From positions 1 to 32,287 of the forward strand of contig JAFRVY010000057.1 in assembly GCA_017438285.1 (NCBI GenBank): a DNA stretch of 32,287 bases, written 5' to 3'. Source of the stretch: Bacillota bacterium. GTDB lineage: Bacteria; Bacillota; Clostridia; Peptostreptococcales; Anaerovoracaceae. Positions within the stretch are counted from its first letter, which is position 1; the number at the start of each line of letters is the position of its first letter. Under the pieces are notes generated by a model. That model was not told the DNA's origin and did not search any database. It worked only from the letters and a program-made list of their open reading frames with translations. The translations under genes were made by a program, and so were the position numbers. Positions 3,000 through 32,287 of this stretch are shown piece after piece.

Positions 3000-3307
3000 C
3001 AGAAAGAGAACTGTACGAGCAGCTGCAGACTACGGGTCTGCAGGTGGCATACAGGGCATTCGATGAATCAGATGTCCCGGAGATGCCGTTCCTGGTGTAT
3101 TTCTTCGACAGGAGCAACAACTTCGGAGCAGACGGGCTGGTACACCAGAAGATAGATCACTATCAGGTGCAGCTGTTCACGAAAGAAAAGGACCCGGATA
3201 CCGAAGCGCTGGTGGAAGCCGCGCTCGGTTTCACTTTTTGGCAGAAGGAAGAATTTGAGGAAGACGATGAGGCATGCACCCGCATTGTCTACGAAATGGA
3301 GGTATAA
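2996..3307 (+). CDS. Tail terminator / tail completion protein
   Basis: A 103-residue protein beginning MTERELYEQLQTTGLQVAYRAF, with central FLVYFFDRSNNFGADGLV and HYQVQLFTKEKDPDTEALVEAAL, and an aromatic FTFWQKEEFEEDDE tail. An N-terminal helix, a central beta-meander and the 'YQVQLFTKxKDPxxE' segment are typical of small tail terminator proteins (lambda gpU fold group) placed immediately before the tail tube gene. Such proteins cap the tube and provide the head-binding surface. Translationally coupled to the gp10-like gene by an ATGA overlap. Confidence 0.75.
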   Translation: MTERELYEQLQTTGLQVAYRAFDESDVPEMPFLVYFFDRSNNFGADGLVHQKIDHYQVQLFTKEKDPDTEALVEAALGFTFWQKEEFEEDDEACTRIVYEMEV

Positions 3308-3309
3308 AT

Positions 3310-3870
3310 ATGGCAGCAAAAGTCAAGTTTAACATCAAAAACGCACACTATGCGCCAAAGACACAGAGCGGATGGGGGACACCGGTAGCGATTCCGGGTG
3401 CGGTCAGCGCATCCCTGGAGCCTCAAGGTGAGCTGACTCCGTTCTATGCCGATGGGATCAAGTACTACATCTCCGGCGGAAACGGCGGATATGAAGGCGA
3501 CGTAGAGTTCGCTCTGATCCCGGACGCATTCAGAAAGGCGATCCTGGGCGAAGCAGAAGATGCGAACCATGTCCTGTGGGAAGACGCGGATGCAAATCCT
3601 GTCGAATTTGCATTCGGATTCGACGTCGATACCGACGATGGCGTGATCAAGTTCTGGTTCTACAACTGCACGGCTTCCAGACCAAAGGTCGAAGCAGAGA
3701 CCAAGGAAGACACGGTAGAACCGAAGACAGATACGATCACGATCTCATGCGCACCGGGATCCGATGGAAGAGTCAGAGCAAAGACAACTGACGACACAAC
3801 CTCAACAGTCCTGAATGCGTGGTACGAGAGCGTATACGAGTACGCTGCATCTGCAGCACCATCTGCATAG
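3310..3870 (+). CDS. Major tail (tube) protein
   Basis: A 186-residue protein starting at ATG 3310 (MAAKVKFNIKNAHYAPKT), with AATGGAGG at about 3296-3303 as ribosome binding site. The pattern (VSASLEPQGELTPFYADG, GGYEGDVEFALIPDAF, VEFAFGFDVDTDDG, ASRPKVEAETKEDTVEPKTDTITISC) is that of the phi13-type major tail protein family in phages of Bacillota. These assemble as stacked hexameric rings around the tape measure. Gene order agrees: terminator before, chaperones after. The C-terminus is short and has no added Ig domain, unlike some relatives. Confidence 0.9.
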   Translation: MAAKVKFNIKNAHYAPKTQSGWGTPVAIPGAVSASLEPQGELTPFYADGIKYYISGGNGGYEGDVEFALIPDAFRKAILGEAEDANHVLWEDADANPVEFAFGFDVDTDDGVIKFWFYNCTASRPKVEAETKEDTVEPKTDTITISCAPGSDGRVRAKTTDDTTSTVLNAWYESVYEYAASAAPSA

Positions 3871-3892: not shown

Positions 3893-4243
3893 ATGGAAAA
3901 GACGGTTAAAATCGGCGAGAAAGAAATCAAACTGAAAACATCCGGGGCTCTGCCGAGGATCTACAGACTGTGGTTCAACAGGGATATCTTCAGAGACATC
4001 AATCTGCTCGCGACCATTGAAGATCCGGACGAGCTGGAAGCAGAGTCCATGGCTGTTTTTGAGAATGTGGCATATGCCATGGCGAAGCACGCTGATCCGA
4101 ACGGCATACCGGACGACATCATCGAGTGGCTGGGATCCTTTGAAGACCCGAGCACCATCTACAACATGATAGATGATGTGATAGAGCTCTGGAATGCAGA
4201 GAAGAAGGAAACGGCAAAGCCAAAAAAAGAATCAGAGAAATAG
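3893..4243 (+). CDS. Tail assembly chaperone gpG-like (zero-frame product)
   Basis: A 116-residue acidic protein (MEKTVKIGEKEIKLKTSGALPRIYRLWF...) with the usual chaperone start: a short beta segment, then helices rich in acidic residues (EDPDELEAESMAVFENVAYAM). It ends in a lysine-rich tail encoded by an A7 run. The gene sits between tail tube and tape measure, the universal position for gpG-like proteins, which coat the tape measure and recruit tube subunits. The ribosome binding site is GACAGGAGGTCACGGA. The AAAAAAA run near its end allows a -1 shift into the overlapping T frame. Confidence 0.9.
   Translation: MEKTVKIGEKEIKLKTSGALPRIYRLWFNRDIFRDINLLATIEDPDELEAESMAVFENVAYAMAKHADPNGIPDDIIEWLGSFEDPSTIYNMIDDVIELWNAEKKETAKPKKESEK
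4222..4229 (+). promoter_or_regulatory. Slippery A AAA AAA G, -1 programmed frameshift site (gpG to gpGT)
   Basis: In the gpG frame the codons read CCA AAA AAA GAA, and the heptamer A AAA AAA is a perfect -1 slippery site because both lysine tRNAs can re-pair. The -1 frame then stays open from 4228 to a TAA at 4414-4416. A -1 shift at this point between tail chaperone genes is one of the most conserved features of long-tailed phages, so function is very likely. Confidence 0.92.
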
Positions 4244-4427: not shown

Positions 4428-7400
4428 ATGGCAGGGAACATCAAAGGTTTGACAGTCGAAATCGGAGGCGACACTTCGAAACTGTCAAAGGAACTGACAA
4501 AGCTGAACAGGCCGATAAATCAGATGCAGGGCGAACTGAAGAGGGTGAGCCAGCTGCTGAAGATGAATCCGGGGAATACTGCGCTCATTCGGCAGAAAAT
4601 GGAACTACTGAGTGCCAGCGTGGAAGAGACCGAAGGGAACCTCAAGGAACTTCGCGCAGCACTGCAGAGGGCATCTGCATCCGGAGCAACAGAAAAGAAC
4701 TCGGCCGGGTTCAGAAGACTGCAAAGAGAAATAACACAAACGGAAGCGCGCCTGAAAGAGCTTGCAGCTGAGCAGGCGCGTTTTGCTGTACAAAGCTCCA
4801 GAATAGGTGTCGCAGCGGCGAGGATAGAACAGTACGGCCAGAAGGCCACTGCAGCAGGTAATTCACTGCGCGGGCTGAGCATCGCGACAGGGCTGCTGGG
4901 CGGTCTGGCTGTCAGGACGACAGCAGAGTTCGACTCTTCCATGTCGAAAGTACAGGCCGTATCCGGTGCAACAGGCGGAGAGTTCGACCTGCTGAGAGAC
5001 AAGGCCCGGGAGATGGGCGCAAAGACAAAGTTCAGCGCGTCTGAAGCGGCTGAAGCCATGAACTACATGGCCATGGCCGGCTGGAAGACCAAAGACATGC
5101 TCTCCGGCATCGACGGTATCATGAACCTTGCGGCGGCATCCGGAGAAGACCTTGCGACGACGTCAGACATCGTCACGGACGGACTGACTGCGCTCGGTTA
5201 CTCCGCAAAAGATGCAGGACGCATGGCAGACGTCATGGCGGCTGCATCATCCAACGCGAACACGAACGTCTCCATGATGGGAGAAACATTCAAATACGCG
5301 GCAGCGGTAGCCGGATCCATGGGGTACAGCATGGAAGATGTGGCACTGGCGACAGGACTCATGGCAAACGCCGGAATCAAAGGCTCTCAGGCAGGTACCG
5401 CGCTCAGATCTACGATCTCACGGATGGCAGCGCCGACCAAACAGGTAAGCGCAGCGATGAAGTCGATCGGCGTGGAGATGACGAACGCCGACGGAACGGC
5501 AAGACCGTTCCGGGACGTCATGGTGGATCTGCGCAAGGGCATGGCGGATCTGTCGGAGACCGAGAAGACGCAGATCGCATCCACCATTGCAGGCAAGAAC
5601 GCGATGTCCGGATTCCTGTCGATCATAAATGCCAGCGATTCAGACTTCAATAAGCTGGCCGATGCCATCGACAATTCGGATGGCGCAGCGCTGAAGATGG
5701 CAGAAACGATGCAGGACAACCTGGGCGGTCAGGTCACGATCCTGAAGTCACAGATGCAGGAACTGGCCATATCCGTTGGAGATACTCTCGTGCCGATGGC
5801 CAAGAAAGCAGTAAAGGCGGCACAGAACCTGACAAACTGGTTCAACAACCTGTCTGCCGGAGGAAAAGACGCAGCGGTCAAGATTGGACTGATGGCGGGG
5901 GCGGCAGGTCCGCTCCTTCTGGCAACGGGCGGTATGGCGAAAGCATTCAGCGGCAGCGTTAAGGCAATAGCATCGGCCAAGGGTGCGATCGCAGCGATGA
6001 CGGTAGTTGAAGGAGAGGCAACAGTAGCGACGAAGCTCTTGGGCGCTGCACAGAAGGCAGTTCCATGGGTGGCAGCAGCTGCAGGCGCTGCACTGATTGC
6101 GAAAGCCATGGTAGACACATACAAATCTACACATGCAGCAACGCTGAAAGTGCAGGAGCACGCAAAAGCACGCCAGGAAGAGATAGACGCGATCAAAGGT
6201 GAAGCCAAGGAATCAGACTTCTATCTGCAGAAACTGAATGAACTTGCTGGCGTGGAAGACAAGACAAATGCTCAGAAAGAACTCATGCAAACGTATGTGG
6301 ATAAGCTCAACAGCTCTGTCAAAGATCTGAACCTCACATACGACGCAGAGAAAGACAAACTGAATCAGACGACACAGGCAATCAGAGATAAGATCCAGGC
6401 GCAGAAAGAAGAAGCCATGGCGGCAGCCTATCAGAAGAACGCGAAGGCGGCGCTCGAAGAGTACGTCAAGCAGCAGATGAAGGCGTCTGATGAACAGAGG
6501 AATTATAACCAGCTCAAAGAGAGATGGAACAGCCTGAGCGATTCAGAAAAGCAGACAGCAAAAACTCTGCAGGATCAGATGAGAGAATCCGAAAGAGCAT
6601 TAGACGAGTACAACAGTTCGATGTCCACGGCTCTGATAGATGCCACAAAGTGGCAGAACCAGGCGGCAAAGAACTCGGGAGCATGGAAGCAGCTGACAGC
6701 AGACGCGAAGGCGGCAGGCATCCAGATCCCGCAGTCTGTCAAAGACGGAATCAATTCCGGCAAGTATGTGATACCGACGACGGTATCAGAACTGGAAGCG
6801 CTGATCAAGTTTGACAACGCTGCGAACCGCGCTGTAGGAGACGGAAAGAAAACATCAGACAACCTCGCGCAGGGCATGCGTGAAGGAACCGTCACAGCAC
6901 AGCAGGCAGCAAAACAGCTGACGAATGCAGTCAAAGATGAAACAGGGAAGACCCCGGGACAGACAAAGGCAGACGGAAAGAAAGCCGGTCAGAGCTTCAA
7001 TCAGGGGCTGTCCGGACAGGCAGGCGGTGCGAAGACCGCAGGAAGCAAGGTCAAGGAATCTGCCAAGAGCGGCGCATCCGGAGGAAGCCTGAGCGGTCAG
7101 GGCCGGAGCATGGGCTCTACATATGGTTCCGGAGTAAGCGGGCAAAGCGGAGCTGCACAACAGGCAGGTAAAGCACTGAAAGATATGGCCAAGAGCGGTG
7201 CATCCGGAGGATCACTGAGAAGCATCGGTAGATCTTTAGGTGAAGGACTTGCAGCAGGACTGCGTGCAGCACTGGGTTCCGTTAAATCAGCAGCAAACGC
7301 ACTGGTAGCAGAAGCCAATAGGGCAGCAAAAGCGAAAGCGAAGATTCATTCACCGTCAAGATTATTCAGAGATGAAGTAGGTATGCCGATAGCGGAAGGC

Positions 7401-8482: not shown

Positions 8483-9489
8483 TACTGACAAGCCCGAGCG
8501 GTAGAGAGCTAAGAGCGCTGGATTTTTCAAAGGCAGACATAGACGTCAATAGCACTATGGACTTTGAAATAGTGATATTGGCGTCAAGATACAAGGAAGA
8601 CATTGTGAACAAAGGGCGCGTGTTTGTTCCGGGTTCGGAATACGGCGGCGTTATTAACGGGCACAAAGTCAACACTGCGGAAAACACGGTGACGGTCAAG
8701 GGCCGAAGCTGGCGGGGGTTTTTGGAAAAAAAAATAATCAAACCGCCGGCGGGAAGTGCGTACAAGGTAGTATCCGGAGAGCTGAACACCGTGGTAAGAA
8801 CGATGATATCAGAAGCAGGACTATCTCCACTGTTTCGTGGGTCCATGGATGACACGAGCGAAAGCGTTACAAATTATCAATTTAATAGATACACGACGCT
8901 GCGAAAAGGACTGAAGAAGATGCTATCAAGCGTCGGGTACAGACTGAAACTCACATACGTGCAGCAGGAGGCTGGTGCGGAAGGCTACGTGAAGGTTGAG
9001 GCGGTACCAATGGAGGATTATTCGGAAACAATAGAAGTGTCTCAGGACTCTCAAATCGATTTTATCATTGAAGAAAACCGTTACCAGACGAACCATCTGA
9101 TATGTCTCGGGTCCGGGGAACTCGCAGAAAGGATGGTGGCCCATTTGTACCTGCAAGAGGATGGAAGCATCGGGAGTACGCAGTATTATATGGGCATTGA
9201 CGATATCGAGGAGGTATATGACTATCCGTCTGCCGAAAGCAGAGAAGAGCTGGTCAAACAAGGGGAAGAACGATTGCTCGAGTTGACGGACGGCCAGAGC
9301 ATGCAGATGGATGTAGCCAGACTGGGGATAGAGGTCGGCATAGGAGATATCGTCGGAGGGAGAGATTATATCACGGGAACGAGAGTATCGAAACCGGTAA
9401 TAAACAAAATATATAAAGAGGAAAACGGAACAGTGAACATTGATTATATCGTGGAAGGAGAAACAGAGAATGAGGATACTATTCAATGA
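8476..9489 (+). CDS. Baseplate hub / tail-associated protein (ReqiPepy6 Gp37-like)
   Basis: A 337-residue protein matching the pattern of the siphovirus Gp37-like domain, the N-terminal hub part of Tal proteins. It opens with short beta strands (MVILTSPSGRELRALDFSKADIDV) and continues with a TVTVKGRSWRGFLEKKII segment, a helix (LRKGLKKMLSSVGYRLKLTYV), FIIEENRYQTNHLICLGSGELAERM, and QMDVARLGIEVGIGDIVGGRDYITG near the end. It lacks a long C-terminal lytic or fibre domain, so it is a hub-only version, with receptor binding left to downstream proteins. It overlaps Dit by 7 bases. Confidence 0.85.
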   Translation: MVILTSPSGRELRALDFSKADIDVNSTMDFEIVILASRYKEDIVNKGRVFVPGSEYGGVINGHKVNTAENTVTVKGRSWRGFLEKKIIKPPAGSAYKVVSGELNTVVRTMISEAGLSPLFRGSMDDTSESVTNYQFNRYTTLRKGLKKMLSSVGYRLKLTYVQQEAGAEGYVKVEAVPMEDYSETIEVSQDSQIDFIIEENRYQTNHLICLGSGELAERMVAHLYLQEDGSIGSTQYYMGIDDIEEVYDYPSAESREELVKQGEERLLELTDGQSMQMDVARLGIEVGIGDIVGGRDYITGTRVSKPVINKIYKEENGTVNIDYIVEGETENEDTIQ

Positions 9490-10144
9490 CATGTCAGAAA
9501 TGGCCATTCAAGCAGCAGCGCTAAATGGGGCATACCTGGAAATAAAGACAATCGCGGCTGGCCCGGCGGAGCTGAGGGAGATCTTCGAGGACGAAAATAA
9601 AACGCGGAGGATCAAAGTTTATGAGCAGGACGAGCTGATAGCGACATATGACGGCTACACAGTCTTCTATAGAACAGAAGAATATGCTGGCCAGATTTAT
9701 GGAGTCGCAGTATATCGCCCGGCATCAACACCGGAAGCGCAGATGGATGTCATAGAATCCGCCGTCAAGGTGGCCAGAATTCAGGCGCAGGGTCTCGATG
9801 ACGAGCAGGCGCTCAATGTGCAGAACCTGTATCCGATCTGGTCCGGAGATGGTGTGGAATACGCCGCAGGATACAAAGTCAACTACGAAGAGGTCCTTTA
9901 TAAGTGCCTGCAGGCGCATGCGTCGCAGGTGGACTGGAATCCGGCAGATGCGCACAGCCTCTGGACAAAGGTACTTAATGAACCGGGGGCGATTTCTGAC
10001 TGGGAGCAGCCGTCAAGCGCAAATCCATATATGAAGGGCGACAAGGTCAAGCATGCAGGCACAATCTGGGAGTCTCTCGTTGACAACAACGTATGGGAGC
10101 CTGGGGCTGCAGGGACAGAGTCGCTGTGGAAGGAGGTATCATAA
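9470..10144 (+). CDS. Tail protein with two CBM5/12-like carbohydrate-binding modules
   Basis: A 224-residue protein. I start it at ATG 9470 (MRILFNDMSEMAIQAA), which has GGAAGGAG upstream; an ATG 30 bases earlier lacks one. The N-terminal 110 residues resemble a tail-tip domain with a helix (SAVKVARIQAQGLDDEQALNV). Two copies of a chitinase-type CBM5/12 pattern follow: VEYAAGYKVNYEEVLYKCLQ...W..AD..SLWTKV and a second ...YMKGDKVKHAGTIWESLV...W.PG..GTESLWKEV. Aromatic residues (W, Y) are placed as in carbohydrate-binding modules. It lies between the hub and the DGR-diversified protein and ends directly at the next ATG, so it may scaffold or assist that protein in host-surface binding. Confidence 0.8.
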   Translation: MRILFNDMSEMAIQAAALNGAYLEIKTIAAGPAELREIFEDENKTRRIKVYEQDELIATYDGYTVFYRTEEYAGQIYGVAVYRPASTPEAQMDVIESAVKVARIQAQGLDDEQALNVQNLYPIWSGDGVEYAAGYKVNYEEVLYKCLQAHASQVDWNPADAHSLWTKVLNEPGAISDWEQPSSANPYMKGDKVKHAGTIWESLVDNNVWEPGAAGTESLWKEVS

Positions 10145-11362
10145 ATGGAATTAATCACAGCCGCAAAAGGGAGCGTGCACATAACGCCACTACAGGACAG
10201 CCTGTGGCATAGGGCGATTATTGGCGCAGAAACGTGCATCCTTCAAAAAGGGAATAAATTCGCGCCACAGGTGATGAATAACACGCTTATACGTATCAAA
10301 GACGGCGTAGGGATGATTCAAGGACGATTTTTTTGCATAGAGCCAAACACATATGATGAAGTTGAGCTATCAAGTGGCTCGCAAGGCGTCAATAGAATAG
10401 ACATCATCTGCGCTAAAATCACGGCCAACGGGGACGGAACACAGACTGGAAGCTGGGAGATTGTTGAGGGAGATCCTACAACAGGGAGCCCAGTTACACC
10501 AGAATATACGGAAGGCAATCTCGATAATGGCGACCCGGAAGCGCTGTTCGGAATAATTAAGGTTACGTTTGAAGGGGCGTCTATCACTTCTGCGGAATCG
10601 ATAAATGAGGGCGCCCAGTCTATTTTACTGTCCGCTCCGCTCAGTTCGGGCGCAGCTGCCCACAATACCATCTACAGAGGCAAGTATCTCGGCTCAGCCG
10701 TGACCGATGAGCAGTATGCCAGAATCCAGGACGGAACATTTCACGACTTATTCATCGGAGACTACTGGACCATCGACGGAATCAACTGGCGTATCGCCGA
10801 TTTTGATTACTGGTATGGCACGGGCGACACAGAATGCACGACACATCACGCGGTTATTGTACCGGACACAGAACTGTACAAGGCGCAGATGAACACTTCG
10901 AACGTCGTAACCGGCGCATACGTCGGATCCAGAATGTACACCACGAACCTCGCCACGGCGAAGACAACTATCAATAACGCATTCGGATCCGCGCATATCC
11001 TGAGCAAGAGACTGCATCTGCAGAATGCCGCAACAAACGGCTACAGCTCCGGCGGAACATGGTACGACAGTACGGTAGACCTCATGAACGAGATCAACGT
11101 ATACGGCAGCAAGATCTACGGCGATGTCATTAACGGAACGAACTGGCCGAATCTGTATACGACAGATAATAGTCAATTCGCCCTGTTCAGACACGACCAT
11201 AGCAGGATCATCGGAAGAGATGCGAACAACAATCGCTCGGCCTGGTGGCTTCGCGATGTCGCGAACACGACGTCCTTCGCCCGTGTCAACAGCTACGGCC
11301 TTGCGGGCCACAACAACGCCTCGACCTCTCTTGGCGTCCGCCCTGCTTTCGGAATCTGCTGA
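10145..11362 (+). CDS. DGR-diversified tail/receptor-binding protein (CLec/DUF6273-like C-terminus)
   Basis: A 405-residue protein. Residues of about 1-170 form a tail-attachment part (MELITAAKGSVHITPLQDSLWHRA...). Residues of about 175-405 form a C-type-lectin/formylglycine-generating-enzyme-like domain of the DUF6273 kind (GDYWTIDGINWRIADFDYWY, WWLRD near 367-371, GVRPAF near the end). The last 118 bases are the variable repeat: 10 codons differ from the template repeat 822 bp downstream (366 N>A, 377 N>S, 380 N>R, 384 N>Y, 386 N>L, 388 N>G, 389 N>H, 394 N>T, 396 N>L, 401 D>A). Every change is at a template adenine. This protein very likely contacts the host receptor at the tail tip. Confidence 0.95.
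   Translation: MELITAAKGSVHITPLQDSLWHRAIIGAETCILQKGNKFAPQVMNNTLIRIKDGVGMIQGRFFCIEPNTYDEVELSSGSQGVNRIDIICAKITANGDGTQTGSWEIVEGDPTTGSPVTPEYTEGNLDNGDPEALFGIIKVTFEGASITSAESINEGAQSILLSAPLSSGAAAHNTIYRGKYLGSAVTDEQYARIQDGTFHDLFIGDYWTIDGINWRIADFDYWYGTGDTECTTHHAVIVPDTELYKAQMNTSNVVTGAYVGSRMYTTNLATAKTTINNAFGSAHILSKRLHLQNAATNGYSSGGTWYDSTVDLMNEINVYGSKIYGDVINGTNWPNLYTTDNSQFALFRHDHSRIIGRDANNNRSAWWLRDVANTTSFARVNSYGLAGHNNASTSLGVRPAFGIC
11234..11351 (+). repeat. DGR variable repeat (VR)
   Basis: This stretch aligns without gaps to the template repeat at 12056-12173 (offset 822, so the same codon phase). I count 16 differences over 118 bases. All 16 fall on the template's 31 adenines and none on the other 87 bases. 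Replacement bases are mixed: 8 C, 4 G and 4 T. Changes hit AAY codons mainly at positions 1 and 2, so no stop codon can be created at those codons. Identity breaks immediately outside, at both ends. Confidence 0.97.
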
Positions 11363-11370
11363 TCTTAAAT

Positions 11371-11391
11371 CTCCGCCCTTCATGGGCGGAG
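11371..11391 (+). promoter_or_regulatory. Hairpin/cruciform 3' of VR (DGR target recognition element)
   Basis: An 8-bp perfect stem (CTCCGCCC 11371-11378 with GGGCGGAG 11384-11391) around a 5-nt loop TTCAT lies 19 bases after the end of VR homology and 8 bases after the stop codon. No T-run follows. In the Bordetella phage DGR a similar short hairpin just after the initiation of mutagenic homing site is needed for efficient retargeting. Location and geometry suggest the same role here. An mRNA structure near the next gene's AGGAGG is a weaker alternative. Confidence 0.8.
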
Positions 11392-11407
11392 TAAGGAGGA
11401 GTTAGAG

Positions 11408-12028
11408 ATGAGTGTACCGAAAGGAAAACGCCGGCAGTCACGTTTTGAAGCACAGCATCAATTTTACAAACTGCGCGACGAAGTAACAATGCTCATGCTG
11501 CAGGATTTCGGATTCTCGCCGGAAAAGTATCAGGAGACGATCGAGTGGTACAGACGATGTCATGAGGCGGCGGACAATGTCGAGGAAGTCGTGGCGAGAT
11601 ATGAAAAGAAAAGCGAAGCATTTAATAGATGGTTTATCGACAAGGAATGCGACGCAGTGCTCGAGATCCTCAGAAAGATCGAGAGCGAATTCGCGCAGGG
11701 CAACTCGACATTCCCATCGGACACTCCGGCAAGGCTTCTCGAATTCGCGACCAGGCGATACCACATGAATAATGCCATTGCGGAATGCTATGTATTAAAG
11801 CAGGAGCTCAATTACATTATCCGCACGCTGCCGGTCGACAAGAACAAATTCAAGAGATTCGGCGAAGCGATAGATAAACAGATATCACTATATAAAGGAG
11901 TAAGGCAGTCGGATAACAGATTCCTCAAGAGGAACGTCAAAAACAACACTATAGCAAGAGAGACGGCATCCATCATAGATGCGATAGCCGACCTGTTCGG
12001 AAAGATCCAGCAGACGGAAATAGAATAA
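11408..12028 (+). CDS. avd: DGR accessory variability determinant candidate (Avd-like, long form)
   Basis: A 206-residue, strongly basic, almost wholly helical protein (FEAQHQFYKLRDEVTMLMLQDFGF, KYQETIEWYRRCHEAADNVEEVVARYEKK, RYHMNNAIAECYVLKQELNYIIRTL). It sits between the VR gene and the template repeat, the standard avd position, behind an AGGAGG. Avd proteins are four-helix-bundle, RNA-binding partners of the reverse transcriptase and are needed for cDNA synthesis. The usual size is near 120-130 residues, so this one is some 75 longer; the extra helices at residues of about 60-110 may be an insertion. The function is inferred from context and helical, basic character. Confidence 0.75.
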   Translation: MSVPKGKRRQSRFEAQHQFYKLRDEVTMLMLQDFGFSPEKYQETIEWYRRCHEAADNVEEVVARYEKKSEAFNRWFIDKECDAVLEILRKIESEFAQGNSTFPSDTPARLLEFATRRYHMNNAIAECYVLKQELNYIIRTLPVDKNKFKRFGEAIDKQISLYKGVRQSDNRFLKRNVKNNTIARETASIIDAIADLFGKIQQTEIE

Positions 12029-12035
12029 CGATTAT

Positions 12036-12357
12036 AGGGTAGCCTTTGTAGATTGCGCTCGAACTGGTGGCTTCGCGATGTCGCGAACACGACGAACTTC
12101 GCCAATGTCAACAGCAACGGCAATGCGAACAACAACAACGCCTCGAACTCTAATGGCGTCCGCCCTGATTTCGTAGGTGCAGAGTAAGACCTCAAGATAG
12201 GCATGCACCGCTCCGAAAGGAAAGGCTATCCTTGCCGCAGAGCTAAATAAAAGCGCAGAAATGCGGAGCCGTTTCCGTGTCGGCTCGCTCCATGCAGTAA
12301 GTTACGACAAGCTGATACCCGGAGCCTGATCTCCGCAAGAGAATCACGGAACTTTTT
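12036..12357 (+). ncRNA. DGR template RNA (TR plus structured spacer)
   Basis: The only non-coding stretch over 300 bases. It contains the template repeat (12056-12173) and a spacer up to the reverse transcriptase ATG. AGGGTAGCCTTT at 12036-12047 can pair over 12 bp (one G-U) with AAAGGCTATCCT at 12221-12232, closing a loop around the template. Further hairpins follow: CGCA-GAAA-TGCG at 12254-12265 (GNRA tetraloop), a 6-bp stem 12266-12271/12281-12286, and a 5-bp stem 12320-12324/12331-12335. In the Bordetella system the spacer 3' of TR binds the RT-Avd complex and primes cDNA synthesis. The exact RNA ends cannot be read from sequence. Confidence 0.8.
12056..12173 (+). repeat. DGR template repeat (TR)
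   Basis: The invariant donor copy for VR 11234-11351. It keeps the target's codon phase and contains 13 AAC/AAT codons, the hallmark template design: adenine mutagenesis of AAY gives up to 15 amino acids and no stops. Read in phase it would give an asparagine-rich version of the target C-terminus, ending after 12173 with a different tail and a TAA at 12185-12187. It is on the same strand as, and upstream of, the reverse transcriptase. Confidence 0.97.
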
Positions 12358-13587
12358 ATGGAAAACTCAATAACAGATCTGAATGTACTATATGACGCAT
12401 TCCGGGCATCGATGAACGGCAGCGCCTGGAAGGAAGAGCCTCAGCGCTTCGAGATGGATTTTCTCAGCGAGATCATAAAACTGTCGAACGAGCTCGAAAG
12501 CAGGACCTATAAGACGACGAACGGAGCCACGTTCATATTCAGAGAACGTGGCAAGGCTCGCCTGATCCACGGCGGCAGGATGCGAGATAGAGTCGTCAGA
12601 CACGCTCTATGCGATGTCGAGCTGACACCGAAGCTACATCCGTATCTCATATATAACAACGGAGCAAGCCAGAAAGGCAAAGGCATATCCTTCTCGAGAA
12701 AACTCTTCGAGAAGGATCTTCATAATTACTGGCTGAAGCATCGAAGCAATGACGGTTATGTGGGATTCATAGACATGTCGAAATTCTACGACAACATGCA
12801 GCACGACAAGATCCTCAAGAGCGTATGCCCGAAGCTGTCGGATGATGCCGCCTGGCTCCTCACGGAGATACTCAAGAATTTTGAGGTAGATGTCTCATAT
12901 ATGACGGATGAGGAATATGCCAGATGCATGGAGACGAAATTCAACTCCATCGAATACCATGAGACCATCCCGGAGGAGCTCAAGACCGGCGAAAAGATGA
13001 TGCGCAAGTCGGTAGATATCGGAGACCAGGTATCTCAAAATATAGGCGTATATTTTCCGACGCGGCTCGACAATTACGCCAAGATAGTCCGGGGCTGTAA
13101 GTATTACGGCCGCTACATGGATGATATCTACATCATAGGCGAGACGAGAACTGAAGTGCTATCCATCATCGAAGGAATATCCGAGCAGGCAAAAGAGCTC
13201 GGACTTTTCGTCAATGAGAAGAAAACGCACATCGCCAGGCTGTCAGATACATATAAATATCTGCAGATCCGATACACGCTCACGGACACCGGCAAAGTGA
13301 TCCGGAGAATAGATCCAAAGAGCGTCACGAGAGAGCGCCGCAAGCTGAAGGCATACAAACGACTTCTTGATAAGGGAAGAATGTCGGCTGAAGACGTTGA
13401 AGAGTCGTTCAAGTCGTGGATGGGGTCAATGAATGAATATATGTCAAACCGACAAATTACAAACATAATTGATCTGTATAATGACCTATTCAGGAGGGAA
13501 CTGACGTGGGAAAGCCAATCACGGCTGCGCTGGTTGACGGCGCAGCACAGAGCACAACTCGAACAACACAATGAACGGCGAGCTTAA
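12358..13587 (+). CDS. DGR reverse transcriptase
   Basis: A 409-residue reverse transcriptase that copies template RNA into adenine-mutated cDNA. Motif A is FIDMSKFYDNM with D139. The domain-4 motif is GDQVSQ (residues 222-227); the GxxxSQ form distinguishes DGR enzymes from group II and retron types. Motif C is YMDD (253-256), and a later VNEKKTHIARLSDTYKYL segment fits motifs D/E. About 50 residues lie between motif A and GDQVSQ as an insert. The C-terminal basic helices form the thumb. All catalytic residues are intact. The ATG follows only a weak purine site, so expression may be low. It overlaps the next gene by 17 bases. Confidence 0.96.
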   Translation: MENSITDLNVLYDAFRASMNGSAWKEEPQRFEMDFLSEIIKLSNELESRTYKTTNGATFIFRERGKARLIHGGRMRDRVVRHALCDVELTPKLHPYLIYNNGASQKGKGISFSRKLFEKDLHNYWLKHRSNDGYVGFIDMSKFYDNMQHDKILKSVCPKLSDDAAWLLTEILKNFEVDVSYMTDEEYARCMETKFNSIEYHETIPEELKTGEKMMRKSVDIGDQVSQNIGVYFPTRLDNYAKIVRGCKYYGRYMDDIYIIGETRTEVLSIIEGISEQAKELGLFVNEKKTHIARLSDTYKYLQIRYTLTDTGKVIRRIDPKSVTRERRKLKAYKRLLDKGRMSAEDVEESFKSWMGSMNEYMSNRQITNIIDLYNDLFRRELTWESQSRLRWLTAQHRAQLEQHNERRA

Positions 13588-17636: not shown

Positions 17637-19153
17637 GTGTAAGAAGAAACGAGCACGACGGCCGGACCGCACACGATGGTTCGACCAGATGTCAAACTGG
17701 ACCACCAATTTGACCCTTGGTCGAACACAAAGAGATCCTCGAGTTCAAGCGGCTCTACGCCGGTGAGATTGAGCTCAATGAGGATCTTTTTATCGTTTTT
17801 GACGACTTTACGAACGAAGGCGTCAAGGATCCTCTGTGTGTGCTTTTCGGTATCATCGAATGAGAAACCGGAAAGAAAAGCAATGATGCCGCCCTTCAAT
17901 GCCTCCGGGTCCTGAAGCGGATCAGGACGGCGGTCTCCGGAACTGATAGCGATCTCAGCGCGCAGCTCCTCGCGTTCAGCCTCCAGCTCGTCCAGTTTAT
18001 TGAGCAGGGCGTCAGATCCAGGACGCTGCGACAGATTATAGACCAAGGCATCCAGTTGTTTCTCGATCCGTGCGAGTTTCTTCTCGGGCTCCATGGCCGC
18101 CGCCGGCGCATCTTTCTTTTGATATTCGCAGAGTTTCTGCACGATCATATCCAGTGCATCTGGATCCAGAAGGGAATCGGCGACTTCAGATGCAATGAAG
18201 GATTCGAAATCACGTGCTGGAAGATTAGGGACATCGCAGTCTTTCCCGGTACACTTGTAGTAGTAATGTTTTTCTCCGGTCTTACTGGTGCCGGACACAC
18301 CTTTGTAATTAGAACCGCAGCATCCGCAGAACAGCTTCCCCGAGAGGTAGTATTCTGCACTCTTGGCATGCGGCTTGTGATTCTTTTCTATTTTTTTCTG
18401 AACCATATAAAACAAATCCTCCGGAACGATGGCGGGCATGCCGCCCTCAATAACAACGTCGGCCCATTTATACTCCCCAATGTATCGCTTGCTCGTCAAG
18501 AGCTTCCTGACGGCGTTACCGTTGATTAAATTACCTCTGCCGGTACGAATATCATGCTCGCCGAAATATCGCGAGATATCGGCGAATGTGGCTCCCTCAA
18601 GATACATCTCAAAAGCATGAACCACGTGAGGGGCAACATCCGGATTGATCTCGTACTGCTGATCTGTACCGACGCGGTACCCTATCGGAGCCTTTGACCC
18701 TGTCGATTTCTTTTTGTACGCGGTATCGTGCATGCCGCGCAGGATCTTTCGTGACAGCTCCTCGGAATAATACTGAGCCCATCCCTCCATCAGCGCCTCC
18801 AGAAGGATCCCTTCCGGACCTTCCGGGATGTTCTCTGCAGCATATCTGATCTGCACGCCGCAGTCCTTCAGCTTGCGCTTGTAGATAGCACTGTCATATT
18901 TGTCGCGGCTGAAGCGGTCGGTGGTATAGACAACGAGCACATCAAAAGCGCCGGCTTCCGCGTCACTGATCATCTTCTGGAACTCAGGACGTTGATCTGT
19001 ACGGCCGGTGATATGCCGGTCAGCATAGATGCCGACCAGCTGCAACTTATTCTTTTTTATGTACGCCTTGCACTCGCGGACCTGGCCCTCGATAGACTGA
19101 TCGGTCTGACCAGATCCTGCAGAGTAGCGGGCATAGATAACAGTTCGATTCAT
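17612..19153 (-). CDS. int: Large serine recombinase (phage integrase)
   Basis: A 513-residue large serine integrase that joins phage attP to bacterial attB. The N-terminal catalytic domain has YARYSAGSGQTDQSIEGQ (nucleophile S11) and TTDRFSRDKYDSAIYKRKL. The recombinase domain follows (APIGYRVG...GNAVRKLLTSKRYIGEYKW), then a zinc-ribbon (LFCGCCGSNYKG...YYKCTGKDC), a coiled-coil KKLARIEKQLDALVYNL segment and a C-terminal domain. The ATG abuts the exonuclease stop (TAAATG), so it is probably cotranscribed with repressor and exonuclease. The last 30-40 codons overlap an imperfect palindrome that looks like attP. If so, the C-terminus changes when the phage integrates. Confidence 0.95.
   Translation of the reverse strand: MNRTVIYARYSAGSGQTDQSIEGQVRECKAYIKKNKLQLVGIYADRHITGRTDQRPEFQKMISDAEAGAFDVLVVYTTDRFSRDKYDSAIYKRKLKDCGVQIRYAAENIPEGPEGILLEALMEGWAQYYSEELSRKILRGMHDTAYKKKSTGSKAPIGYRVGTDQQYEINPDVAPHVVHAFEMYLEGATFADISRYFGEHDIRTGRGNLINGNAVRKLLTSKRYIGEYKWADVVIEGGMPAIVPEDLFYMVQKKIEKNHKPHAKSAEYYLSGKLFCGCCGSNYKGVSGTSKTGEKHYYYKCTGKDCDVPNLPARDFESFIASEVADSLLDPDALDMIVQKLCEYQKKDAPAAAMEPEKKLARIEKQLDALVYNLSQRPGSDALLNKLDELEAEREELRAEIAISSGDRRPDPLQDPEALKGGIIAFLSGFSFDDTEKHTQRILDAFVRKVVKNDKKILIELNLTGVEPLELEDLFVFDQGSNWWSSLTSGRTIVCGPAVVLVSSYTKKREAAQ
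17679..17726. other. Candidate attP (imperfect 18-bp inverted repeats inside int)
   Basis: GTTCGACCAGATGTCAAA (17679-17696) and TTTGACCCTTGGTCGAAC (17709-17726) are inverted repeats matching at 15 of 18 positions, around a 12-bp centre CTGGACCACCAA. The whole is 48 bp, the size of known serine-integrase attP sites, whose arms bind the recombinase and zinc-ribbon domains. The dyad centre falls at 17702/17703 (CC), a possible crossover dinucleotide. Location inside the integrase 3' end is consistent, since attP usually adjoins its integrase gene. Confidence 0.65.
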
Positions 19154-26028: not shown

Positions 26029-26171
26029 TGGTGATATTCGCAGGAGCGATTGTGATATTCACAGGGCTGCTCGCCGTAGCGGTTAGCTGGATCCTGATCG
26101 TATGGATATATGAAGAGATAAGACAAAGAAGACCGCTGACGAAAGAAGAATGGAAGGAATGGGACGAATGA
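26028..26171 (+). CDS. Single-span membrane peptide (47 aa)
   Basis: A 47-residue protein started at ATG 26028 (AGAAGGGAG upstream); an upstream in-frame ATG at 25965 lies within the previous gene and is less likely. One strong membrane segment, VIFAGAIVIFTGLLAVAVSW, continues to ILIVWIYEE, then a charged tail (EIRQRRPLTKEEWKEWDE). The function is unknown. Confidence 0.7.
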   Translation: MVIFAGAIVIFTGLLAVAVSWILIVWIYEEIRQRRPLTKEEWKEWDE

Positions 26172-31581: not shown

Positions 31582-32287
31582 GTTCGCTATAGACTTCGAC
31601 GGCGTCCTGTGGGACGGAGAAGAGATCCGGGAGGACATTGCAGAAAAGATCGCGCAGCTGCGGGAAGACGGCCACAAAGTCTACCTGTGGACCGCAAGGC
31701 AGGGAGACCTGAAGCAGAAATGCATGGAAATCATCGAGGAGGCAGGGATACAGTTCGATGAACTGCCGGAAGGCTATCTGAAGATCGGTGCAGACTACTA
31801 CATCGACGATAGAGCAATCAGTATTGACGAGTTCATGGAAAGGGAAAGAAAAATGGACAGGAACAGGGATGTATACCAGCGCAGGGCACTCATAAGCCCT
31901 ACAAAATTCAACACGAGAGAAGACGGCGAGGCCCTCTACATAGAAGGGTACTTCGCCGTTTTTAATAGCACATACGAAATCTGGAATGATGCAACGGAGT
32001 CGATTGCTCCGGGCGCATTTACAGAGACGCTCAAAGATGCGGACGTGAGGGCTCTGATCAATCACGACACCCGTCTGGTGCTCGGCCGTACAAAGGCCGA
32101 AACACTGGAGCTCAGAGAAGACGACCACGGACTGTGGGGAAGGGTCCTGATCAATCCGAACGATCAGGATGCCATGAACCTCTACGAACGTGTGAAGCGG
32201 GGAGACGTTGATCAGTGTTCCTTCGGATTCGAGATCATCAGAGAAGAGACCGAAATCAGCGATGATGGTTCGATCCACTGGACGATC
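31574..32287 (+). CDS. HAD-like domain fused to HK97-type prohead protease (N-terminal part; continues at base 1)
   Basis: The frame opens at ATG 31574 (GATGGTGATG upstream, overlap with portal) and runs without a stop to the window end, then 1-309, giving about 293 residues. Residues 1-93 are a compact HAD-type phosphatase-like domain: DFDGVLWDG (D7 and D9), VYLWTAR (T40) and YYIDDRA (D78-D79). From M94 (ATG 31853) a normal-sized protease of about 200 residues starts (MDRNRDVYQRRALISPTKF, FAVFNSTYEIW, SIAPGAFTETL, ALINHDTRLVLGRT with the candidate His). Either one fusion protein is made, or the protease also starts internally at 31853 behind an A/G-rich AAAGGGAAAGAAAA. The HAD domain lacks a cap and has an unknown substrate. 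Confidence 0.85.
   Translation, partial: MSKFAIDFDGVLWDGEEIREDIAEKIAQLREDGHKVYLWTARQGDLKQKCMEIIEEAGIQFDELPEGYLKIGADYYIDDRAISIDEFMERERKMDRNRDVYQRRALISPTKFNTREDGEALYIEGYFAVFNSTYEIWNDATESIAPGAFTETLKDADVRALINHDTRLVLGRTKAETLELREDDHGLWGRVLINPNDQDAMNLYERVKRGDVDQCSFGFEIIREETEISDDGSIHWTI
32147..32287. repeat. Terminal direct repeat, copy 2 (circular contig overlap)
   Basis: Exact copy of bases 1-141. Merge with the left end to close the circle and restore the protease gene. Confidence 0.95.

Follow-up and report, generated by a model that had tools for sequence, protein, structure and literature searches.

The stretch of DNA analysed here, 32,287 nucleotides in length and referred to below as the window, almost certainly carries a complete diversity-generating retroelement (DGR) belonging to a temperate tailed phage. 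The cassette is a DGR of an already known kind, as all of the tested DGR features were found save a direct match of the accessory protein to Avd, and DUF6273 targets like the one in the window have been published. What is new is the phage, with its divergent helper protein and template RNA. As had been stated in the preliminary description, the parts are intact and follow each other in the canonical order: a tail gene that includes the variable repeat (VR), a hairpin, an Avd-like gene, the template repeat (TR) with its RNA, and a reverse transcriptase (RT) gene (Table 1).

Table 1. Location and properties of the parts of the DGR cassette in the window.
Feature	Position	Strand	Properties
Target tail protein, 405 aa	10145..11362	+	N-terminal ~160 aa match phrog_9994/13141; C-terminal DUF6273 with VR
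VR (variable repeat)	11234..11351	+	16/16 differences to TR face TR adenines
Inverted repeat	11371..11391	+	8-bp stem CTCCGCCC/GGGCGGAG, 5-nt loop TTCAT, located past the stop codon of the target gene
Divergent Avd-like accessory protein, 206 aa	11408..12028	+	Avd assignment via relatives
TR (template repeat)	12056..12173	+	31 adenines, 18 variable codons
Structured spacer RNA	12166..12328	+	Begins inside the TR 3′ end and runs toward the RT gene
DGR-type RT, 409 aa	12358..13587	+	IGDQVSQ and YMDD motifs

VR and TR align without gaps over 118 bases, and the similarity ends at both edges of this stretch. The TR is composed of 31 A, 38 C, 28 G and 21 T. All 16 mismatches fall at the adenines and none of the 87 other positions differs, an arrangement with P = 1.3e-11 if the 16 differences were placed at random on the 118 positions. 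Eight of the substitutions are A to C, four are A to G and four are A to T. Ten codons of the tail gene are changed between the repeats, nine of them from AAC or AAT and one from GAT to GCT. The recount agrees on every point with the figures obtained by hand in the preliminary description, namely a gapless alignment, differences at 16 of 31 template adenines and at no other base, substitutions spread over C, G and T, and ten altered codons of which nine were AAY. The 18 adenine-bearing codons of the TR allow about 2e18 possible proteins, and a stop codon can never be reached by exchange of A for any other base. No third copy of the repeat was found on either strand of the window, where the best other place agrees at 41 of the 87 non-adenine positions, and in the source assembly (79.88% complete) nothing besides TR and VR matched the TR at E up to 0.001. 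The 57-base TR pattern was found on none of the contigs in the viral and genome collections, the exact element being without a population partner there, and a scan of public collections with a 26-mer from the spacer gave no match.

The two ends of the window are an exact 141-bp repeat (positions 1-141 and 32147-32287), so that the phage genome is circular and complete, with 32,146 bases. This sequence is one entire contig of a metagenome-assembled genome (1.65 Mb, 126 contigs). It includes genes for the terminase subunits, portal, protease, major head and major tail proteins, a repressor-like gene and a serine integrase gene, as well as genes for a PhageMin_Tail tape-measure-type tail protein, a peptidoglycan-binding protein and a GH25 lysin. 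Judged from its sequence, the phage is a temperate tailed one. The DGR has the tail tip genes on one side and the lysis genes on the other. Residues 336-403 of the target match DUF6273 (Pfam PF19789) with 31.5 bits (cut-off 23.5), and the VR lies at the end of this domain; the earlier identification of the target as a DUF6273-like tail protein is thereby borne out. A DUF6273-like domain has been modelled as C-type-lectin-like (PMC10743442), and a lectin-like fold may be proposed for the target domain on the strength of that published model; a PDB search with the target alignment returned lectin matches that were insignificant (E 0.42 and above). The tail gene directly upstream of the target (positions 9440-10144) contains two CBM_5_12 carbohydrate-binding stretches.

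DGR-type RTs are characterized by the signature [IVL]GxxxSQ together with YMDD. The window RT shares the G, S, Q, Y, D and D of both motifs with bRT of phage BPP-1. When the PDB was searched with a profile from which BPP-1 bRT had been excluded to avoid circularity, the top match was 8ub7, which is full-length BPP-1 bRT (E 2.4e-22), followed by a group II intron RT (1.3e-10). The family phrog_1423 is common to the window RT and bRT. The window RT also scores with models for defence RTs (DRT) and group II RTs, but it stays below the cut-off of all six NCBIfam models that it matched (best 58.9 bits versus 300).

The accessory protein belongs to a conserved family with 12 invariant residues in 27 aligned rows. 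No meaningful match to the window protein was found in Pfam, NCBIfam or PHROGs, and at E 0.1 none of the 27 family members matches Pfam bAvd (PF22296), the model that BPP-1 Avd, a pentameric helical barrel, matches at 7e-36. Comparison of the accessory alignment with BPP-1 Avd alone using hhalign gave no match (probability 0.1), nor did a PDB search with the same alignment. However, matches to phrog_3206, the family named 'Avd protein of DGR', were found for 12 of the 27 members, the best at 7e-11, and in the related locus L020 this match spans residues 82-191 of the protein. From these relatives we infer that the accessory protein is a divergent Avd whose N-terminal half includes an extra segment. 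The description of the gene as avd-like therefore holds by way of the relatives, while the window protein itself has no Avd match. A weak PADLOC assignment to LmuA (E 2.7e-4) was taken as a chance similarity between helical proteins.

A spacer of 184 bases separates the end of the TR from the RT start. In the first helix of the RNA, the last five TR bases (TTTCG) pair with CGAAA of the spacer. Across 19 aligned spacers, 22 of the 29 consensus pairs are changed on both sides at least once, and 98 covariation cells are changed on both sides compared with 26 in shuffles, with none of 500 shuffles as high for either count; these counts were made on the alignment from which the structure itself had been derived. 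Sliding of the pairing partners abolishes the signal, and among the five measures the count of pair types was unremarkable (42 versus 38.8, with 56 of 500 shuffles as high). A covariance model built from 15 spacers was run on 54 sources, among which only the window and L001 came from the training set. It matches 31 of the 54 with E ≤ 0.01, directly after the TR in almost every case, including L021 (8.5e-11), L020 (1e-8) and an Acutalibacter phage, L054 (1.7e-5). The 23 unmatched sources include the group of L024, L026 and L028 as well as BPP-1. Rfam RF03022 (Phage_DGR), which does match BPP-1, has no match in the window even at E 10. In another related locus, L035, the spacer between TR and RT (positions 4828-4986) shows a weak match to RT-2 RNA (RF03077; 28.8 bits versus a cut-off of 40), which may link RT-2 RNAs to DGRs.

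The hairpin starts 19 bases past the VR. In an alignment of 23 chosen loci (22 distinct rows, four of them out of register), all eight stem pairs are changed on both sides, with 1 of 500 shuffles as high, and 27 cells are changed on both sides compared with 5.8 in shuffles, with none of 500 as high. Taken row by row, 21 of the 23 loops have five bases, 17 of these conforming to Y-T-Y-R-T; L026, which is outside the 23 loci, has a loop of 9 nt. The hairpins of phage DGRs as described in PMC3240598 have stems of 7-10 bp and 4-nt GRNA loops and lie 4-34 bp after the VR. The window hairpin agrees with that description in stem and distance but differs in its 5-nt loop.

A terminase 98-99% identical to that of the window was detected in two other species of the genus (genomes G008 and G021), and a terminase match of any kind was found in 11 of the 49 genus genomes, that of the window included. 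The G008 phage, a sister prophage with a 98% identical terminase, is present in integrated form and shares about 96% identity with the window from position 26156 via the terminase and portal genes to the window end, and 77.6% over the next 10.5 kb, which includes head and tail genes. The G008 version of the target retains the first ~150 residues (56% identical) and ends without DUF6273. Three or more small ORFs come next, two of them with a match to the C-terminal portion of phrog_13141, and the lysis genes lie beyond these. Neither an RT search nor a DNA search of G008 found a match to the cassette, and the G021 contig stops before the cassette region. The comparison with G008 shows that the tail tip domain, the accessory gene, the TR and the RT occur as a set or are all missing, and that the cassette is not essential to this lineage. 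The G008 prophage site is the 3′ end of a tmRNA gene, with a shared core CCACCA (L084 6161-6516, L085 18076-18224, and about 17702-17707 in the window). The C-terminus of the serine integrase differs between the circular form in the window and the integrated form in G008 because the crossover falls within the 3′ end of its gene.

Related RTs, 30-80% identical to that of the window, were found on 43 viral and 21 genome contigs, and the 64 loci include near-duplicates (L009/L010 and L011/L059). Fifteen of the 21 genome contigs are titled Clostridia (Lachnospiraceae, Eubacterium, Clostridium and others), and the other six are from Prevotella (2), Saccharibacteria (1) and proteobacteria (3). The scan for VR/TR pairs covered 65 loci, made up of 42 of the 43 viral contigs (all but L042, which is truncated within the RT), the 21 genome contigs, one phage record and the window. 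Pairs with a score of at least 60 were detected in 55 of these, and 765 of their 783 pooled mismatches face TR adenines while 18 do not, a proportion that leans in favour of the pattern because the scan scoring penalizes non-adenine mismatches. Ten loci are outside the pooled counts. Shorter pairs in L025 and L040 have 14/14 and 12/12 differences at adenines, L054 has 16/19, L014 has 4/7 and L072 has 0/1; in L012, L027, L033, L058 and L076, some of which are on contigs that end too soon, a pair was not found.

Comparison of VRs between loci that share an identical TR carries much less scoring bias. Nine such pairs, three of which fall among L008, L011 and L057, have similar or identical flanks and show 9-15 VR differences each, all but one facing TR adenines. 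Between L028 and L029, 13 VR positions differ, each of them facing a TR adenine, and the compared remainder is identical (0/600 upstream, 0/621 between the repeats, 0/121 in the TR and 0/1000 downstream). Likewise, L020 and L064 have 15 VR differences, all at adenines, and 1 elsewhere in 2402 bases, L032 and L070 have 9, all at adenines, and 0 elsewhere in 2353 bases, and L068 and L069 have 11, of which 10 are at adenines, and 1 elsewhere in 2397 bases. The remaining five pairs (L008/L011, L008/L057, L011/L057, L021/L077 and L036/L071) differ at 11-15 VR positions each, all at adenines, and at 6-33 positions in the comparable flanks, with the interval between VR and TR varying in length in the first three. 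A wider comparison of pairs with similar TRs includes some with divergent flanks. In the nearest relative, L001 (RT 80%), the TR differs from that of the window at 5 of 118 positions and the VRs differ at 20, of which 15 are at TR adenines. DGR activity in the family of the window is strongly supported by these sequences, being read from the relatives rather than from the window phage. The copy in the window is probably active as well, as indirectly supported by its intact, conserved parts and by the adenine-confined VR divergence in the identical-TR relatives.

Some of the related loci have unusual arrangements. L034 contains two VRs, at 3303-3397 and 4146-4240, and one TR at 4749-4843, with 14/14 and 17/18 differences at adenines. 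Two DGR copies with identical VR and TR, L065 and L066, are present on the same contig (JAFTFC010000001.1), and 6 of their 22 VR/TR differences are outside adenines; the doubling would be either a duplication or an assembly repeat. In L014 (positions 4701-4825) the RT, accessory protein, target and spacer RNA are intact and only 9 of 125 TR bases are adenines. Relative to the most similar TR, that of L062, it is changed at 22 of 28 adenine positions and 14 of 90 others (P 1.3e-9), as though the template had itself been replaced by mutated cDNA at some time in the past.

Two other readings are improbable. The repeat pair might have arisen by duplication or gene conversion of the end of the tail gene, next to an RT that belongs to a defence system or a group II intron, and the scores of the window RT with DRT and group II models speak for this. 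However, drift would not spare 87 non-adenine positions, and the adenine pattern of both the window and the related loci contradicts such an origin. The TR is not part of the tail gene and continues into an RNA with a covarying structure, no NCBIfam model matched by the RT reaches its cut-off, and the best solved match is a DGR enzyme, BPP-1 bRT, leaving this origin with hardly any probability. For the hairpin, the absence of a T-run behind it, the covariation of its stem among relatives and a distance from the VR within the published range for phage DGRs all speak against a terminator of tail-gene transcription in place of a homing element. Its GC-richness and its place between two genes would suit a terminator, but a terminator scan of positions 11200-12400 does not call the hairpin, and this role is considered very unlikely.

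A DGR that is intact in sequence could nevertheless be inactive now, with a VR that was diversified in the past and has since become fixed. The sister prophage lives without the cassette, and L014 retains intact genes with a TR nearly free of adenines, both of which are in keeping with loss of activity. In the window, though, VR and TR still agree at every one of the 87 non-adenine positions despite dissimilar flanks, which fits fairly recent homing. The RT, accessory ORF, RNA helices and hairpin are likewise intact, and relatives with identical TRs differ in their VRs. Present inactivity is unlikely, though not as improbable as the alternatives above, and the cassette is best read as the DGR of a temperate tailed phage.

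By analogy with BPP-1, the TR would be transcribed together with the structured spacer on its 3′ side. The RT and the Avd-like protein would bind this TR-spacer RNA and copy the TR to cDNA, misincorporating opposite adenines. The cDNA would then replace the homologous VR in the tail gene, aided by the hairpin just downstream, and the exposed face of the DUF6273 tail tip would be randomised and may meet new host receptors.

It is conceivable, at somewhat less than even chances, that phages mostly of Clostridia carry a distinct branch of DGRs, distinguished by an Avd with an extra segment, an additional segment between RT motifs in most members, a spacer RNA outside Phage_DGR and a 5-nt hairpin loop. 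The accessory protein, RNA and loop may constitute a co-evolved recognition set unlike that of BPP-1, and the cassette a swappable module for the tail tip. No description of this accessory and RNA branch was found in a literature search, most subscription papers being beyond its scope. With the window, a clean and complete DGR becomes available from a defined temperate phage, together with 64 related loci whose sequences alone allow activity to be judged. The covarying RNA and the hairpin provide an alignment for studying template and target recognition beyond the BPP-1 model, and the cassette-free sister prophage allows a naturally fixed tail tip to be compared with a diversified one.

Among known systems, metagenomic surveys have recorded >30,000 DGRs in six lineages, three of which are mainly phage-borne (PMC8144416). 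Acutalibacter phage Fontainebleau (ON453893), though distant from the window, encodes a homologous RT and an accessory protein homologous to that of the window (32% over residues 3-174), annotated only as hypothetical, and it is the source of the L054 spacer RNA match at E 1.7e-5; its VR/TR pair is below the scan threshold, with 16 of 19 differences at adenines as given above. The Faecalibacterium prophages Roos, Pioen, Lelie and CP11 are described as having a DGR VR at the C-terminus of DUF6273, with the clearest variation among reads at the VR in Roos and Pioen (PMC11792537). On that description, they resemble the window in having a DUF6273 target and in being phages of a gut Clostridia genus. 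The DGR of BPP-1 (NC_005357), for which adenine-specific mutagenesis has been published (PMC3240598), shares with the window the order of target with VR, hairpin, avd, TR, spacer RNA and RT, and provides the best solved match to the window RT. However, the 409-aa RT of the window has a segment between motifs that is absent from bRT, and its 206-aa accessory protein is not recognised by PF22296, as BPP-1 Avd is. The spacer RNAs are mutually unmatched, RF03022 failing to find that of the window and the covariance model of the window family failing to find that of BPP-1. The target is a DUF6273 protein in place of Mtd, and the hairpin has a 5-nt loop where the BPP-1 sequence, GCGGGGCC-GAAA-GGCCCCGC, has a loop of 4 nt.
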